From a virus: a DNA stretch of 25,376 bases. A model generated the notes under the pieces. The model was not told the origin of the DNA and did not search any database. It saw only the letters and a program-made list of their open reading frames with translations. This document shows positions 2,459 through 18,674 of this stretch, piece by piece; positions within the stretch are counted from its first letter, which is position 1, and each line of letters begins with the position of its first letter. The stretch spans positions 1 to 25,376 of the IMG/VR virus record IMGVR_UViG_3300037584_000119; one strand, written 5' to 3'. A program made the translations under genes and the position numbers.

Positions 2459-4150
2459 ATGCCATACATAGGTAGTGACCCATCCAACAGATTTGTAGCA
2501 CCTAAAGCAGCATCTGTATTTTCAGGTGATGGTTCTACAACTGCATTTACATTAGACCATGCAGTAGGTTCTGATGAGGACATACTTGTATCGGTGGATG
2601 GTGTTATCCAAGAACCATCTGTAGCATATGCAGTGAGCAGTGGAACTACACTTACATTTACTGCTGCACCATCAAGTAACTCAGGTAATAACATCTTTGT
2701 GTATTACTTGTTTAGAACAGTGGGTACAGTAAGTCATCCAAGTAATAATGCTTTGAGTGCGACAACAGGTACATTTACAGGTGCTTTATCTGCCAAAGGT
2801 GGTGCAGTCTTTAACGAAGATAGTGCTGATGTAGATTTCCGTGTTGAGTCAAATGGTGAAGCAAATATGCTTGTTGTTGATGGTGGAAATAATGCAGTTG
2901 TAATTGGGGAGTCTGCACCTGATACAAGTATTAGTGGTGGAACTCCTGCTTTTCAAGTTATTGGAAGTGCATTTGATTCTTTTATGTCTTTGACAAGAAG
3001 AGTGGCATCTGCTTCTGCACCAGTTCTAGCATTAACAAAAAGTAGAAACACAAGTGTAGGTTCTCATACTATAGTACAAGATGGTGATACAATAGGTGAA
3101 ATTAACTTCTTTGCAGATGATGGAACAGACTTTGATTCAAGAGTTGGAACTATAAAAGCTCAAGTAGATGGTACTCCGGGTGCAAACGACACTCCGGGCA
3201 GATTAGTTTTTATGACATCAGCAGATGGCTCAAACTCACCATCAGAACGTATGCGAATAGATAGCAGTGGCAATGTTGGTATTGGAGGTAATGGTAATCC
3301 TACGTTATATGTAGTTAATAACAATGCAGGTCCGGGATTAACTGCTGCAAATGCAACAGCAGTATTTCATGGTTCTGTTGATGCAGGAAAAGGTGGTTGT
3401 ATAGGCTTTGATTTTGGAGCATCACATACAAACTATCCAGTAGGTATAGGGTATGTAATTACAAGTCAATCAGGCTCTACCAAAGGTGATTTGTGTTTTT
3501 ACACTAGAAGTGGAACTGGAGATGATGCACCTTCCGAACGTATAAGAATTACATCTGATGGTCGTGTTGGAATAAATGATAGCACACCTACAGCAGGTGT
3601 TGATATAGCTTTTGATACTCAACAAGTTCATGCTTTACAAATTAGAAACAGTAATTCTTCTACTGGTGGTGGTAAATACATACAATTTGCAAAAGCAAAT
3701 GGTGATTTTACTGGAAGTATTACTCAATCTTCAGACCAAAATACAGTTGCTTTTAACACAAGCTCTGATTACAGATTAAAAGAGAATGTTTCATATGATT
3801 TTGATGCAACATCAAGATTAAAACAACTTAAACCTGCTAGATTTAATTGGATTTCAGATGAAAATAATACAACAATAGATGGTTTTATCGCACATGAAGT
3901 ATCAGGTATTGTTCCTGAAGCAATAACAGGTGAAAAAGATGGAACACAAGATGTTGGAACAATTAAAGATGAAGATGATAATGTTTTACATACTGATGTA
4001 CTAGAAATCACAAAGCAAGATGGAGAAACATGGACTAAAACTGGAACAAAAAATGTATATCAGGGCATAGACCAAAGCAAACTTGTACCTTTACTCGTAA
4101 AAACCATACAAGAATTAGAAGCTAGAATTACAGCATTGGAGAACGCATAA
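2459..4150 (+). CDS. Tail spike/fibre with C-terminal S74 intramolecular chaperone (spike 1)
   Basis: 563 aa. The N-terminus MPYIGSDPSN resembles that of the second spike (4703-6127) and may be the virion-docking end. The middle is a beta-rich shaft with motifs such as SSGNVGIG. The C-terminus from about residue 436 is a Peptidase_S74 domain: Ser436-Asp437-Tyr-Arg-Leu-Lys441 fits the family's Ser/Lys self-cleavage dyad, followed by the DGFIAHEV motif and a final coiled coil (about 543-563). In this family the domain drives trimer folding and then cuts itself off. The stop overlaps the next ATG as TAATG (4148-4152), implying coupled translation. The receptor-binding part is probably the variable central region. 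Confidence 0.85.
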   Translation: MPYIGSDPSNRFVAPKAASVFSGDGSTTAFTLDHAVGSDEDILVSVDGVIQEPSVAYAVSSGTTLTFTAAPSSNSGNNIFVYYLFRTVGTVSHPSNNALSATTGTFTGALSAKGGAVFNEDSADVDFRVESNGEANMLVVDGGNNAVVIGESAPDTSISGGTPAFQVIGSAFDSFMSLTRRVASASAPVLALTKSRNTSVGSHTIVQDGDTIGEINFFADDGTDFDSRVGTIKAQVDGTPGANDTPGRLVFMTSADGSNSPSERMRIDSSGNVGIGGNGNPTLYVVNNNAGPGLTAANATAVFHGSVDAGKGGCIGFDFGASHTNYPVGIGYVITSQSGSTKGDLCFYTRSGTGDDAPSERIRITSDGRVGINDSTPTAGVDIAFDTQQVHALQIRNSNSSTGGGKYIQFAKANGDFTGSITQSSDQNTVAFNTSSDYRLKENVSYDFDATSRLKQLKPARFNWISDENNTTIDGFIAHEVSGIVPEAITGEKDGTQDVGTIKDEDDNVLHTDVLEITKQDGETWTKTGTKNVYQGIDQSKLVPLLVKTIQELEARITALENA

Positions 4151-4686
4151 TGGCATTAACAAAGGTACAAGGTGAAGGAATAAATGGGATAAGCATTACT
4201 TCTGGTGGTGTTGTTACTATGGCTAGTACAACATTTGCACAAGCCTTCAGACTGACATCAAACTTAACATCAAATGGTGATTTGACTAATTGGGAGGCTT
4301 GTGATGATGCGAGTTCTGGAGCAGTAGGAACTGCAATTACAGTGGGTAGTGGACTTTTTACATTTCCTATTACTGGACTTTATAAAATTGATTATTTTTA
4401 TCAAACATTTAATGGTAGTGGGTCACAAGATAATTACATAACTTTGAATTTGTTTCATAGTTCTAATAGTGGTTCAGACTTTGACCAAATAACTGAATCA
4501 TCTGCAGGTGGTACAGATGACATGAGTGCTTCTGGTACTGGAATGGCTCTTGTTAATGTTACCAATGCTTCAACACACAAAGTTAAATTAACAGGTGGCT
4601 CAATAGCAAGTGGTTCACTCATATCAGGCAATTCAGTAGCTAATACAACTGCAATAATATTTCAGAGATTGACAAATAGTCAATAG
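4150..4686 (+). CDS. C1q/TNF-like jelly-roll protein (178 aa), probable fibre tip or accessory
   Basis: The start is fixed by the TAATG overlap with spike 1. Residues 68-84 carry the core C1q-type signature: Phe70 and Phe72, then Pro, Gly76, Tyr78 and aromatic Tyr82/Phe83. This is followed by beta-rich sequence to the end (IIFQRL near the C-terminus). C1q/TNF-like folds form trimeric jelly rolls that bind sugars or proteins and occur at phage fibre ends. Lying between two S74 spikes, it is likely a surface-exposed binding or collar component. The family match rests on the short signature only; a generic beta-sandwich fibre protein is the alternative. Confidence 0.6.
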   Translation: MALTKVQGEGINGISITSGGVVTMASTTFAQAFRLTSNLTSNGDLTNWEACDDASSGAVGTAITVGSGLFTFPITGLYKIDYFYQTFNGSGSQDNYITLNLFHSSNSGSDFDQITESSAGGTDDMSASGTGMALVNVTNASTHKVKLTGGSIASGSLISGNSVANTTAIIFQRLTNSQ

Positions 4687-4702
4687 TAAAGAGGTATAAA
4701 CA

Positions 4703-6127
4703 ATGGCATATATAGGAGTCAGTCCATCTAATGGAGTACGTAGGGTTCACACCTACACTGCAACAGCATCGCAGACCACATTCAGTGGTGCAGGTGCAGA
4801 GGGTACATCTTTAAGTTACAAAGACAGTAACTTTGTAGATGTGTACCAAAATGGTATCAAGTTAGGTGACGCAGACTATACATCAACAAGTGGTACATCA
4901 ATCGTACTAGCACAAGGAGCATCCGTAGATGACCTCGTGGTGGTCGTGGTATTTGATGTATTCTCGGTAGCAGACACTGTAAGTAAAGCAGATGGTGGCA
5001 CGTTTGATGGTGCAGTTACTTTTGCAGGTGGTGTGTCAGGTGTGCTTGATGCAGATGATGGCATTACAGTAGATAACATAACAATAGATGGTACAGAGAT
5101 TGACTTATCAAGTGGTAATTTAACGATAGATGTAGCAGGTCAATTAGTAATAAATTCAGATTCTGGTCAAGTAGTGTTACAAGATGACACAGTTAATTGG
5201 GGTAATCTTCAAAACTCATCAGGTGATTTTGTTATTGAATCATTAGGTACAGACAAGGATATAATATTTAAAGGTCTTGATGGTTCTTCTACAATAACTG
5301 CCCTTACACTTGATATGTCAGCTAATGGAGATGCAACTTTTAATGGTCAAATAATTGTACCACAATATATAGCTCATCAAGGGGATGGCAATACATTTAT
5401 AGAATTTGGTACAGACCAAATGGGTTTCAGTCAGGGTGGTGTTGAAAGATTTGAAATGAACAAATCAGGAGGTGTTGTAAGAATAAAACCCGGAGGTAGT
5501 AATGTAATATATTTTGATGGTAATGGACAATCTATTAATAGTGAAACTAGGAGAGGTAGATTAGATATAGAATCAAATATTGCAGCTTATGCCATTGCAA
5601 GTTGGAAAAATCAAGTTAATAACACAGGTAGTTTTTTCTTGTCTTGTTTAAATCACTCAGGGAGTGGAATAGGTGGTATAAGTCAAGCATCTGAAACCAC
5701 ATTAGCTTTTAATACCTCATCTGATTACAGATTAAAAGAAAATGTAGAATATGATTGGGATGCAACAACTAGACTAAAACAACTCAAACCTGCTAGATTT
5801 AATTGGATATCTGATGATACTAATACTGCACAAGATGGTTTCTTAGCACATGAAGTTTCAGATGTTGTGCCTATAGCAATCAATGGTGTTAAAGATGGCA
5901 CTAGAGATATTGGAACAATCAAAGATGCAGATGGAAATGTTTTACAAGAAAATACTATTGAAGCAAGAAAAGAAGATGGGCAAACATGGACTAAGACAGG
6001 CACAGAGGTCATGTATCAATCCATAGACCACAGTAAACTTGTACCTCTTCTAACAAAGACATTACAAGAAGCACTTACAAGAATAGATACACTTGAGGCA
6101 GAAGTGAAAGCATTGAAAGGTGAATAG
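4703..6127 (+). CDS. Tail spike/fibre with C-terminal S74 intramolecular chaperone (spike 2)
   Basis: 474 aa, preceded by AGAGG about nine bases upstream. The N-terminus MAYIGVSPSNGVRR parallels spike 1. Residues 1-90 look like a compact beta adapter (YQNGIKL, then a run of Val and Phe), followed by a repetitive shaft. The Peptidase_S74 domain starts near Ser340-Asp341-Tyr-Arg-Leu-Lys345, the expected Ser/Lys dyad, with DGFLAHEV after it and a coiled-coil tail. That domain is very similar to spike 1 even at DNA level, while the central regions differ. It should trimerise and self-cleave like other S74 spikes. The next gene begins immediately after the stop. Confidence 0.85.
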   Translation: MAYIGVSPSNGVRRVHTYTATASQTTFSGAGAEGTSLSYKDSNFVDVYQNGIKLGDADYTSTSGTSIVLAQGASVDDLVVVVVFDVFSVADTVSKADGGTFDGAVTFAGGVSGVLDADDGITVDNITIDGTEIDLSSGNLTIDVAGQLVINSDSGQVVLQDDTVNWGNLQNSSGDFVIESLGTDKDIIFKGLDGSSTITALTLDMSANGDATFNGQIIVPQYIAHQGDGNTFIEFGTDQMGFSQGGVERFEMNKSGGVVRIKPGGSNVIYFDGNGQSINSETRRGRLDIESNIAAYAIASWKNQVNNTGSFFLSCLNHSGSGIGGISQASETTLAFNTSSDYRLKENVEYDWDATTRLKQLKPARFNWISDDTNTAQDGFLAHEVSDVVPIAINGVKDGTRDIGTIKDADGNVLQENTIEARKEDGQTWTKTGTEVMYQSIDHSKLVPLLTKTLQEALTRIDTLEAEVKALKGE

Positions 6128-14800: not shown

Positions 14801-15386
14801 ACGTAACCTACCTTTTATGTCTAAGTATGGTGGTTATGATGAGCTACAGAGTCCTACTAGAGAGGGTGCTATAATAAGGCAAGACCCCATAGGAACTCAG
14901 TTGACAGGTATAAGAAAAGAGCAGAGAAGAACTCCTATAGAAGAGGAGCTAATTAATCTAGGTCTTGAAAACTATATGGTAGTTCCTTCATCAGGTGATA
15001 AAGAAGCTGACTTCTTTGTTAAAAAATACATGGGTAAGTACGTACAAGATGAAGTATCTAAACTTATTGAGACAGATAGATATAAGAATGCTAGTAATAT
15101 AAAGAAAAGAGTCATGATGAAAAGAAGACTCGCTAGATTCAGAAAGATATCTAAGAAAATAGGTGAGGTAGAAGCTAGGAAAGAGGCGAGAGATGAGGGC
15201 AAGGCATTCACTGCATTTGATAGAGCACAGTTCCTAAGAATAGGAAATGAGAAGCGTAAACTAGCAGATGAATACTACATGGATAAGTATGGAAGCACTG
15301 TTATGGAAATGCAGGAAGCAGAACCTGAAGTCAATCATCTAAAAAGAGGTAAAAGAATAGGTCAGATACTCTCTAGAAGAAGCTAA
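11889..15386 (+). CDS. Large internal virion / DNA-ejection protein (1165 aa)
   Basis: It begins with GTG; AGGAGA five bases upstream (11878-11883) supports this start. The N-terminus is acidic and carries three SYY-type repeats (residues 7-19, 29-41 and 53-65). Amphipathic and Gly-rich hydrophobic stretches occur around 195-215 and 274-300 (GEILTGATIGATVVGAIG), and a conserved-looking FFPLAPYLVVADLIVKW lies near 843. The C-terminus is very basic (KKRVMMKRRLARFRK, about 1073-1087), suiting DNA or membrane contact. Size and last position in the structural operon parallel T7 gp16, but I see no transglycosylase motif. The stop overlaps that of the converging mazG gene. Confidence 0.6.
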   Translation: MKELKTGDSYYDSLFEEEEKETTQTPVVEDSYYQSLLDEEEIPAEKEEISVTGDSFYDSLVEEEATYELNPEYAEETKVDRVKTLDEFSKDENFLSTLRSYAKKRFGDSGLQEEGESNKDYVRRFLTHYRQFSSNTLDLASQVDYIRGANDQDKAEFGALYRDIQRLPNFYEEGGDRSLGAFSDYAFSFFADPLVLFGFGAGKAATTGARKAAEQLFLDVGKKGAMREASKLGFKAIRKPLAIEAGIEGIRAGYETQAESELEEAAELREGDASIGEILTGATIGATVVGAIGLPFAGKLGKSAVKKVIEDDAKNIVEGIEKSEAGKTVFAGKFSVNADDISFDPLEGRTILDNIDPNLDLSNLDLLDKKTKKDVIHRVGKFATEVVEDMMKDPKGRFDDFLAEYRSGEKTASEAIGNILNRLEDFKDIDADILDGAIARAGLSQEQFAKITFTSFSEAGSILSAASPLGKLIKGYKDADPEIKKLYENTFGKEGDSYTGKFGEVMHRLDRERRALMVTQVSTTVRNVATGVARLGFDTGYNIMESTLYHAGRAFDSLISGRAAQDIESGKFTQGLRDIARDSFGLLAFTLDRFDQTGDLVQGMLQYNPQLLKVLNRTTGEVSGTETLSKFTMGMNKLNIMQDTFFRKGVFTASVDKKLRRMGLSLEEVLEKNMVLPTKLLSDAVEDSVAFTFSRMPKENSKKYVGDSLAHTFIKFNEKLGPLPGLIGAPVGTGAFPFARFMANAMQFQFQYSPLSFVGATLNSAGGALKYMKAAMGDMNDAQRKQLLQGGKANIDKAREQFAKGMVGYGALMTAIHHRANNQDVRWYEGKTEDGRTTDLRPFFPLAPYLVVADLIVKWDNNELDKIDAKKVLEGLTGTQFRTGASSYMIDSFFRGLRSPSGLTDISGEKIGEYVGGYVGELVGGALTPGRIVRDVVAAFDEEEARLKDFNKIEGTGFNERGLSKFSNTIARNLPFMSKYGGYDELQSPTREGAIIRQDPIGTQLTGIRKEQRRTPIEEELINLGLENYMVVPSSGDKEADFFVKKYMGKYVQDEVSKLIETDRYKNASNIKKRVMMKRRLARFRKISKKIGEVEARKEARDEGKAFTAFDRAQFLRIGNEKRKLADEYYMDKYGSTVMEMQEAEPEVNHLKRGKRIGQILSRRS

Positions 15387-15745
15387 CGACTATCTCCTGA
15401 CCCTCGTAATGTTCCTCGTGTCTTTCTATCGTTAAGTTTATACAGATTATCTTCCATAATCTTACCTAGATTAGCACCTAACTCATTCGCTAACATGGCA
15501 CAATACCAAAGCACATCACCTATCTCAGACGCTACATTTGATTCTGTGCCATCACGAATATGTTTCTTTACTTTCCCTGCTACCTCTCCTGCTTCACTCA
15601 CAAGTCCAAGAGATAGGTAAGCTATGGCATCTTTCTTAGGATAGATAGCTGTAGTCTTACACTTCTCTTGGTATTCATTTGCAGTTATCAAACTCTTATT
15701 GTGCAACTGCATGAACTTCTTGGCTTCTTCTTCTAGCTTCGTCAC
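15383..15745 (-). CDS. mazG: MazG-like nucleotide pyrophosphohydrolase (120 aa)
   Basis: A MazG/all-alpha NTP pyrophosphohydrolase fold is indicated by the paired acidic motifs Glu51-x-x-Glu54 (in LVSEAGEVAGKVKK) and Glu74-x-x-Asp77 (in SEIGDVLWY), which bind Mg2+. The family hydrolyses (d)NTPs to monophosphates and pyrophosphate; phage versions have been linked to nucleotide balance and, more speculatively, to ppGpp. Length is typical of the single-domain form. The GTG start at 15745 is backed by GGAGAA eight bases upstream; it lies 50 bases inside the previous gene. It is the last gene of the replication arm, and its stop overlaps that of the 1165-aa virion gene. Confidence 0.85.
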   Translation of the reverse strand: MTKLEEEAKKFMQLHNKSLITANEYQEKCKTTAIYPKKDAIAYLSLGLVSEAGEVAGKVKKHIRDGTESNVASEIGDVLWYCAMLANELGANLGKIMEDNLYKLNDRKTRGTLRGSGDSR

Positions 15746-16607: not shown

Positions 16608-16764
16608 GTGTAACTCCTTTCACTTTGGGTTTAAGATGTAATAGTTCCCTTATGTGTAGCTTTCTACCTTTAAAGAAAACGATTAAGTTTATTGTCGTAT
16701 TTATAGTGATGGCAATAAGTAACCACCATTGCCACCATATTAGTTGCTCTGTATTTTCTAACAT
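16585..16764 (-). CDS. Trp-rich single-membrane-span peptide (59 aa)
   Basis: The reading frame starts at an ATG that overlaps the ribonucleotide reductase stop (TAATG) and ends at TAA 16585-16587, 23 bases inside the next gene. The peptide has a Trp-rich entry (IWWQWWLL, residues 9-16) leading into a hydrophobic span to about residue 31, followed by a basic tail (FKGRKLHIRE, then KPKVKGVTHGKPRTK). By the positive-inside rule the tail would be cytoplasmic. The ribosome site is weak (AGG seven bases upstream), so translation is likely coupled. It accounts for an otherwise empty 156-base gap. No known domain; a membrane-acting host takeover or lysis-timing peptide is possible. Confidence 0.6.
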   Translation of the reverse strand: MLENTEQLIWWQWWLLIAITINTTINLIVFFKGRKLHIRELLHLKPKVKGVTHGKPRTK

Positions 16765-18674
16765 TAACTAGCCTGTATGTCAACCATTTCACAAGCATCA
16801 GCAGTACACGCTAATTCTTTAGAGCCACTTGTCGTGTCCTCTTTCTCAAAGTCTGCTAACTTAGACCAATCAATAGAGGTAGGCATCTTCTTATACAACT
16901 CATCATATTCCTGTTCGGTTATATCTTGATAAGGTGCTTGTGCATATGTATGGTCACTGAAAGGTAAGAAGGATATACCTGATACCTCATCAAAGTTTTT
17001 ATACACCCAAGCTCCTACATCCATCCACTCATCTTCCTTTACAGATATAGTTACAGATGGTTTGTGCTCACACCAATGCCTTTGGAACATGAGCCAATAT
17101 TCTAACTGCTGTATGGCAGTCATCTCGGTTCTAGTGATAGCACCTGTAGGTGACTTCATAGGAAAGCTGAACACAGTTGTGCTGTCAGGCTTCATCACGT
17201 CAGGCTCACTAGGGATACCACTCTCTTTCATAAACTGTGTGAGTGGGTCTTTGTTATCACCACGTACAGTTCTAATATAGAAAGGATTATGTCTTGCGTG
17301 TATACCTGATGCACTGTCTACTAACTGAGACACTGTGCCACTAGGTTTTACACAAGTGATTGCAGTAGACTGTGGTATGCCTAATGCTTTAGCAATCTTT
17401 TTATTTGCTTCAACTGCTACTTCTTTTAATATAATTAATACTTCTTCTGACCATATATCTGTATCTAAGATACCTGTCAAAGACACACCTAACAATCTTT
17501 CTTCTTCTGTATTAGTCTTCCATACCTTGCGTAGATACTTGAAGTCTGTAAGTGTAGATTGAAACGTACCTAATATAGTAGCCATACGCACCTTCTCTGT
17601 TAGAGTTGCTAAATCGTCTGTTTCACGTGCAACAACTTCTGTAAGGTTACAGAACTGATAAGGTCTAAGTATAATTTCACTACATGGATTACAACCAAAA
17701 TAGTGATTAGCATCACGTCTACCATTCTCAGACGCTTTTACTCTAGCTGCCTGTCTATTAAATATACCACGTTCTCCTGACTTAGATTCGTATAATGATG
17801 TCCACTCTCGCATAAATGTACCCATTTCAGGTTTACCTTTAAATGCTACAGAGTTATTAGCTAATGCTCTTTGTCCTTCATTCTCCCACCACTGTCCTGA
17901 TTTGGCATGACGCATTTGGTCATCTCCTAAGTTAGACAAAGATATAAGAGCAGAGCGTCTTACACCACCAACAACTACAACTTCTCCTATCTTGCACATA
18001 ATATCATGGCACTCAATAGGGAATAGTCTTCTACCCTTTGCACCTTCAAACTTCTGTATACAAAACTTAAACAGGTCTATAAGAGGAGCAGGTCCTGATG
18101 CTCTACCACCGAAAGTTTTTAGTCTAGCACCTGCAGGTCTTACCTCTGACACATCCCATGTAGGTATCTGTCCTGCATACAGTAAAGATATTAACTCACG
18201 CAAAGCTCTTGACCATCCGGGTCTACTGTCACCCACCTTTATAATAGTAGATGACTTTTCAAAATGTTCGTTTACAACAGGTAGTTTATCTACATTCTCT
18301 CGCTCAACAGAGAAACCTACACCTGTGCCACACATAAGTATATACATACATTCATCAAAGCTACGTGGACTATCTACAGGTATGTAGCTACAATTATATC
18401 CTGCTACATGACATCTATCTAGTGCTATACCTGCAGTCATTAATGCTCTCATACTTGGCATAGTGCCAAGAGATAATATAGATTCATTTAGTTTCTCTTT
18501 GAGAGCCTTAGTAATCGTGTAGTTGTAGTTAGTTTGTAGATGATTATCCATATAATCTATGTATCTATCCACAGTCTCTATCCAAGTCTCTCGTCTTTGC
18601 TCATCGTCTTTCCATCTTGCATATCTAGAAAGAGCTATAAAATTTTGATAATCAGTTGGTAAATAGTTTTGCAT
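16764..18674 (-). CDS. nrdJ: Class II (adenosylcobalamin-dependent) ribonucleotide reductase, monomeric NrdJ/RTPR type (636 aa)
   Basis: It reduces ribonucleotides to deoxyribonucleotides using a B12-derived radical. The catalytic motif is at Asn329-Pro-Cys331-Ser-Glu333, with Cys331 the thiyl-radical cysteine. Cys95 (in AGYNCSY) and Cys342 (in YQFCNLTEV) fit the redox pair, and Cys623/Cys628 at the C-terminus fit the disulfide shuttle. MCGTGVGFSVE near 114-124 is typical of the class. It is shorter than the roughly 740-aa Lactobacillus enzyme, as phage forms often are. No separate small subunit or activase is present or needed. AGAGGAGA precedes the ATG. It supplies dNTPs for replication and would depend on host cobalamin. 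Confidence 0.93.
   Translation of the reverse strand: MQNYLPTDYQNFIALSRYARWKDDEQRRETWIETVDRYIDYMDNHLQTNYNYTITKALKEKLNESILSLGTMPSMRALMTAGIALDRCHVAGYNCSYIPVDSPRSFDECMYILMCGTGVGFSVERENVDKLPVVNEHFEKSSTIIKVGDSRPGWSRALRELISLLYAGQIPTWDVSEVRPAGARLKTFGGRASGPAPLIDLFKFCIQKFEGAKGRRLFPIECHDIMCKIGEVVVVGGVRRSALISLSNLGDDQMRHAKSGQWWENEGQRALANNSVAFKGKPEMGTFMREWTSLYESKSGERGIFNRQAARVKASENGRRDANHYFGCNPCSEIILRPYQFCNLTEVVARETDDLATLTEKVRMATILGTFQSTLTDFKYLRKVWKTNTEEERLLGVSLTGILDTDIWSEEVLIILKEVAVEANKKIAKALGIPQSTAITCVKPSGTVSQLVDSASGIHARHNPFYIRTVRGDNKDPLTQFMKESGIPSEPDVMKPDSTTVFSFPMKSPTGAITRTEMTAIQQLEYWLMFQRHWCEHKPSVTISVKEDEWMDVGAWVYKNFDEVSGISFLPFSDHTYAQAPYQDITEQEYDELYKKMPTSIDWSKLADFEKEDTTSGSKELACTADACEMVDIQAS

Follow-up and report, generated by a model that had tools for sequence, protein, structure and literature searches.

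In proteins that carry a Peptidase_S74 (S74) domain, this domain trimerises, folds the shaft and then leaves. Excerpts of the published work describe a Ser/Lys dyad in S74 proteins (PMC3742443) and, for T5 pb1, cleavage before Ser1264 (PMC4690869). The excerpts also present receptor-binding proteins as modular, with T7/K1F tail fibres and those of Klebsiella phages combining a conserved N-terminal anchor, an exchanged centre and C-terminus, and an optional C-terminal chaperone (PMC6872550; PMC10684548). In the sea, tail fibres and chaperones are common to distantly related marine phages (excerpt of PMC10579305), and host-recognition islands of marine phages have a T7-like N-terminus, a variable C-terminus and nearby C1q genes, with S74 named in a figure legend (excerpt of PMC3909814). 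Here we analyse two neighbouring spike genes, A and D, in IMG/VR virus record IMGVR_UViG_3300037584_000119, a fragment of 25376 bp (the window).

The window belongs to an HMO-2011-type marine podovirus: its DNA polymerase and the one encoded by Puniceispirillum phage HMO-2011 (NC_021864) share 64.8% identity over the full length, and the gene order g2, A anchor, D anchor, g6, g7, g9 is conserved between the two. Records of this type are ~52-55 kb long. HMO-2011 differs from the window in that both of its anchors are stand-alone proteins (149 and 153 aa), and its genome gave no match to Peptidase_S74.

A and D resemble each other at their S74 ends and not in their shafts. We consider it very probable that both are three-module spikes whose shaft/S74 ends were drawn separately from a shared pool, rather than made alike by a recent copy. 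Their features are as follows, with related loci given by number (L003 and so on).

2459..4150, + strand: spike gene A, 563 aa, slot A (open reading frame; S74 match)
2459..2782, + strand: A anchor, residues 1-108 (among the matches listed, identity to other contigs reaches 97-98%; background after ~residue 110)
2783..3763, + strand: A shaft, residues 109-435 (residues 360-427 at 82% identity in L003)
3738..4114, + strand: A DNA homologous to 5694-6070 (80% over 3738-3990, 74% over 4012-4114)
3764..4147, + strand: S74 domain of A, Ser436 (predicted catalytic residue) to C-terminus; cleavage is predicted to remove it
3764..3766, + strand: predicted catalytic Ser436 codon of A, from alignment invariance (partner Lys441 codon 3779-3781)
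3830..3852, + strand: 23-base run identical to 5786-5808 (length as expected)
4150..4686, + strand: g4, 178 aa, starting MALTKV (open reading frame; such leaders are typical between slots A and D)
4703..6127, + strand: spike gene D, 474 aa, slot D (open reading frame; S74 match)
4703..5035, + strand: D anchor, residues 1-111 (among the matches listed, identity to other contigs reaches 94%)
5036..5719, + strand: D shaft, residues 112-339 (distal end common to L009)
5694..6070, + strand: D DNA homologous to 3738-4114
5720..6124, + strand: S74 domain of D, Ser340 (predicted catalytic residue) to C-terminus
5720..5722, + strand: predicted catalytic Ser340 codon of D (partner Lys345 codon 5735-5737)

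A and D share S74 DNA beneath unrelated shafts

Both proteins matched Peptidase_S74 (Pfam PF13884), at 32.0 (A) and 28.6 bits (D) with a curated cut-off of 22, and in both the domain forms the extreme C-terminus (residues 436-563 of 563 and 340-474 of 474). At the DNA level, positions 3738-3990 and 5694-5946 aligned without a gap and were identical at 203 of 253 bases (80%), followed by 74% identity over 103 bp (4012-4114 and 5968-6070). The same residue was encoded by 64 of 84 codons, and by the same codon in 47 of those 64. The homology begins ~26 bp 5′ of the predicted Ser codons (3764 and 5720): in windows of 30 bases, identity was 0.87 from the Ser codon, 0.57 just before it and 0.23-0.40 in the four windows further upstream, and a blastp comparison of A and D upstream of S74 returned no match at E 1e-3. 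An earlier note on this DNA had described similar S74 ends on unrelated shafts, which the Pfam matches, the DNA alignment and the null shaft comparison confirm; its wording of nearly identical S74 DNA was too strong for 80% and then 74%, and the S74 starts that it gave (3761 and 5714) lie 3 and 6 bases from the predicted Ser codons. Divergence is uneven along the pair, not equal along the whole gene as in one of the outcomes that the note had named as contrary to its proposal.

The identical 23-base run (3830-3852 and 5786-5808) reported in the same place is real. As a sign of gene conversion it was rejected, being ordinary for 80% identity: whole-codon shuffles of the 253-bp alignment gave a mean longest run of 21.1 bases and one of at least 23 with P=0.33. 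Besides L001 and L002, which are the window itself, the 23-mer occurs in 4 of 349 loci, two of which (L098 and L099) carry the same gene.

Homology steps down at the S74 border across relatives

Upstream homology was measured as a fixed-register identity profile aligned on the Ser, using 171 of a set of 189 S74 domains; 14 domains in which the pattern S-D/N-x-R-x-K is missing near the start, and the rest with fewer than 100 upstream residues, were left out. This set, from which the tree described below was also made, is a narrower one that includes 58 domains with a slot label and misses some divergent S74s (L199 was found by Pfam). The length of BLAST high-scoring segment pairs was tried as a measure and rejected, as strong S74 scores pull the alignment through the shaft at 20-30% identity.

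For 1245 cross-phage pairs with 80-90% core identity, four-residue blocks had a mean identity of 0.99 from the Ser, 0.73 at -4, 0.41 at -8, 0.18 at -12, 0.43 at -16 and 0.16 at -20, and from 24 residues upstream identity was 0.08-0.13, where background is 0.076. The rise at -16 corresponds to a G-x-I motif whose residues at -15 and -13 are conserved. The profile was much the same in the bands with 50-80% core identity. Upstream identity was higher (0.16-0.30 at -20 to -60) for the 87 pairs above 90%: in this class (at least 90% core; pairs not independent), 65 had no upstream similarity and 22 shared the adjacent shaft, which is shared by ~2% of pairs in the 60-90% bands (again not independent).

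Such a pattern might arise without any module exchange, if shafts mutated fast in place while strong purifying selection held S74, but we regard this as very unlikely. In most pairs the synonymous sites of S74 are close to saturation (in bands below 90% identity the mean excess is 0.12-0.19), and therefore constraint alone could produce the pattern for those pairs. However, in L102, L104 and L093 the first 54 S74 codons are 93-95% identical in nucleotide sequence (with the same codon for 85-88% of identical residues, 51% being expected) and the upstream sequence is unrelated, at background level, which requires exchange, as shaft mutation in place cannot easily explain it. Moreover, anchor conservation ends just as abruptly, and the C-terminus varies among S74, C1q and further ends unrelated to them. 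The pair L264/L130 was considered as a further example and not counted, one upstream window of 30 bases being 0.67 alike. Module exchange between phages is well supported.

The S74 border is not the only join. A and L003 share 68 shaft residues at 82% in addition to S74, and D and L009 share the distal shaft, with one 30-base window identical and its upstream neighbours 0.67-0.83 alike; the exchanged unit in the window's recent history would therefore be distal shaft plus S74. Joins are seen at both borders, that of the anchor and that of S74, and also within the shaft. The earlier note had suggested looking for breakpoints at the S74 border. Homology does break near it in the A/D pair and across relatives, and the notion of the S74 end as an exchangeable module is supported, but the anchor border is equally sharp and some joins are intra-shaft.

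The S74 end follows neither anchor nor slot

Loci were grouped by shared 200-base words. Among groups with at least 75% anchor identity, identity to the window anchor fell to background at residues 111-116 in 54 (A) and 65 (D) relative groups. A scored 17.8 bits against Phage_T7_tail (PF03906), below the cut-off of 25.2, and D had no match; 23 of 53 slot-A proteins reached E 0.001. A structure model of the anchor was too poor to compare (predicted local distance difference test score, pLDDT, 51.7).

Both anchors were complete in 53 phage groups, the window included, of which 7 had S74 in both genes, 22 in D only, 1 in A only and 23 in neither. Because S74-seeded loci enrich for S74, the 40 groups reached by anchor scans alone were counted apart, giving 5, 16, 1 and 18, respectively. 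Pfam matches in the 53 groups agreed with these S74 totals, comprising 8 S74 and 21 C1q ends in slot A, and 29 S74 and 2 C1q ends in slot D. C1q is the commonest recognised end in slot A (21/53, e.g. L287:1769-2818 and L249:1636-2556), so that S74, which the window carries there, is less frequent in this slot (8/53). One of 53 slot-D proteins matched Peptidase_G2, a further family of self-cleaving chaperones, and the slot-A proteins of L143, L265 and L325 end in a relative of g4, the window gene between A and D.

The tail end, whether S74, C1q or other, is unlinked to its own anchor and slot. While a phage's two anchors vary together (rho 0.60, p 0.002, n=53), the anchor and S74 of one D gene show no correlation (rho 0.09, p 0.16, n=45; slot A rho -0.32, n=13), and slot labels on the S74 tree required 12 changes compared with 12.7 in shuffles (183 of 500 as low). 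The earlier note had contemplated S74 histories that match those of the shafts; since shafts are too unlike to align, the comparison was made with the anchor, which the S74 history does not follow. The S74 end is an optional, portable chaperone.

The S74 domains of A and D have separate closest relatives

The earlier note had proposed recent duplication or gene conversion, in which one S74 end was recently copied over the other within the phage lineage. We judge this very unlikely; examined by tree, reciprocal ranks, synonymous identity and a within/between-phage permutation, it was not supported. Among the matches listed, the S74 closest to A is that of L003 (90.2% identity) and those closest to D are in L009 (72.6%) and L083 (71.3%), compared with 70.7% between A and D. 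In the 189-domain set, 11 of 180 foreign S74s outscore D as relatives of A, and 3 of 180 outscore A as relatives of D, L003 only narrowly. In the tree of these domains, A is sister to L003 (Shimodaira-Hasegawa-like approximate likelihood-ratio test, SH-aLRT, 99) and D falls in a separate nine-row set (98); the starred clades separate the two. The same codon is used for 0.96 of identical residues between A and L003 (first 54 codons). Finally, in the 7 phages with S74 in both slots, within-phage S74 identity (0.403) did not exceed between-phage identity (0.377; permutation P=0.25).

Another possibility is an old local duplication, whereby A and D descend from one ancient spike gene, S74 being conserved and the shafts and anchors having diverged beyond easy recognition. 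Both proteins start M-x-YIG-x-x-PSN and a D-type relative matches the A N-terminus at 31% over 125 residues; the anchors may therefore be ancient paralogues. S74 in one slot also tends to accompany S74 in the other (7, 1, 22, 23; Fisher p=0.059). However, the lack of linkage of S74 to anchor and slot, as well as the presence of both anchors without S74 in HMO-2011, argue against this origin, as do chimaeras. L083 joins a D-type N-terminus/anchor to an A-type distal shaft, and L092 is 87% identical to D over residues 1-219 with only 58% in S74, so the parts have separate histories. We consider an old local duplication unlikely; that it retains some probability is due to this co-occurrence and to three of the observations below (co-resident rank, synonymous excess and the 7 x 7 maximum).

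Several observations, together with the co-occurrence just mentioned, weigh against ends drawn separately from a pool, and some of them favour a recent copy. A and D have the second highest score (0.70) of 48 co-resident S74 pairs and, in the 7 x 7 table, are narrowly the highest of their own row and column. They use the same codon for 0.74 of identical residues, where 0.51 is expected, and for excess of synonymous identity they rank in the top 5.7% among 6433 pairs. The S74 tree has 118 columns, 83 of its 181 inner branches are open, and its starred branches alone force only 4 slot changes. The S74 border is not the join for the closest S74 relatives of A and D. In addition, relatives were taken as the best 80 loci per scan, and the contigs are fragmentary.

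Predicted cleavage would remove most of the shared block

Ser and Lys lie five residues apart at the start of both domains (S436/K441 in A, S340/K345 in D), and the corresponding S11 and K16 are invariant across an alignment of 68 S74 sequences selected from the 189. With the Ser placed by alignment with known S74 proteins, A and D are predicted to be cleaved before Ser436 and Ser340. Because the homology starts only ~26 bp before the Ser codon, the shared DNA would mostly encode the piece predicted to be discarded, and the mature spikes, if cut at the Ser, would keep ~nine residues of the shared block.

The intramolecular chaperone (IMC) fold comprises a helical body, a beta-hairpin tentacle and a C-terminal coiled coil. 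A structure model of S74 (pLDDT 71.6) shows a hairpin and a C-terminal helix. Fold searches with it gave weak top matches, 3gw6 ranking first in one (E 0.043, template modelling score 0.19) and 4uw8 in another (Z 2.4), and a profile search gave a weak match to MYRF (7dc3, E 0.0071). No hit came from searching solved structures by sequence with 7 queries.

Leaders, stand-alone anchors and other genes

In L003, the S74 closest to A (among the matches listed) and the distal shaft are found in another slot, within a gene that starts MALTKV (L003:2606-3589). This locus has a stand-alone A-type anchor upstream of that gene and a D-type anchor immediately after it. By a loose pattern, a MALTKV-like leader (MALTKVIG being commonest, 44) was present on 103 otherwise different open reading frames, 12 of which carry S74; on loci with both anchors, 68 of 71 such reading frames sit between slots A and D. 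The leader may be a docking peptide for unanchored fibres.

Stand-alone anchors of ~150 aa, without shaft or chaperone, occur in HMO-2011 (NC_021864 30913-31362 and 27647-28108), in L003 (131-580) and in several contigs; it seems that anchored spikes can alternate between a fused and a split form. Among named phages, the A anchor was matched in 10 records and the D anchor in 42, only one of the latter over at least 80% of its length, and S74 relatives of A were present in 63 records of very different kinds, including pelagiphages, cyanophages, and Vibrio and Achromobacter phages.

Elsewhere in the window, fibre F1 contains, at 1726-1896, near-tandem 39-base repeats that encode ELNILDGVT-like units, and the replication arm on the - strand carries genes for a ribonucleotide reductase (16764-18674) and a MazG-like pyrophosphatase (15383-15745).

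A proposed pooled origin of spike ends and its relation to known systems

We propose that A and D are probably tail-spike (fibre) genes, located in the host-recognition region of a marine podovirus of the HMO-2011 type. In each, the anchor (~108 residues) would belong to one gene slot and pass down with the phage, and the variable shaft is the presumed receptor binder, by analogy with known S74 proteins. By the same analogy, S74 would act as a C-terminal intramolecular chaperone that trimerises and folds the shaft and then cuts itself off, and most of the DNA common to A and D would encode a part absent from the mature virion. Each gene would have gained its shaft/S74 end independently, the source being a pool exchanged between marine phages and between gene slots, and what makes their S74 domains alike would be the constraint on S74, the strongest in the C-terminal half, rather than recent copying.

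A role of the S74 and anchor ends as homology arms in recombination is plausible and, for S74, consistent with the maps. A further idea, which we find doubtful, is that being discarded is exactly what would make S74 a recombination handle across phages: any shaft between the conserved anchor and this conserved chaperone could be swapped by homologous recombination, across slots and unrelated phages, at no cost to the mature particle.

The locus offers a countable example of host-range diversity in ocean phages, the anchor being inherited and the shaft and disposable chaperone end not. It illustrates that likeness between neighbouring spike genes need not imply recent duplication, and the S74 and anchor borders are exact places to look for recombination.

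In the open-licence literature searched, as far as the excerpts go, no test of the linkage of S74 to anchor and slot was found, nor anything relevant on concerted evolution of tail fibres. The islands of PMC3909814 differ from this locus in belonging to HTVC010P-related pelagiphages and in being described by read recruitment, and no breakpoint or linkage test was found in the excerpt of that paper. With the S74/IMC (ICA) domains of phage K1F endosialidase, T5 pb1, the GA-1 neck appendage and MYRF, A and D share the Ser-Lys spacing of five and the Pfam S74 match, and with the known phage proteins also the C-terminal position of the domain. They differ from these systems in that one phage carries two S74 domains on unrelated shafts, known here from sequence. 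The A/D spike build is the usual phage mix-and-match, a kind already known: with the modular receptor-binding proteins of T7, K1F and Klebsiella phages, as the excerpts describe them, A and D have in common the anchor, the exchanged ends and the optional chaperone, and the feature found here, in a marine phage group, is an S74 end unlinked to anchor and slot.

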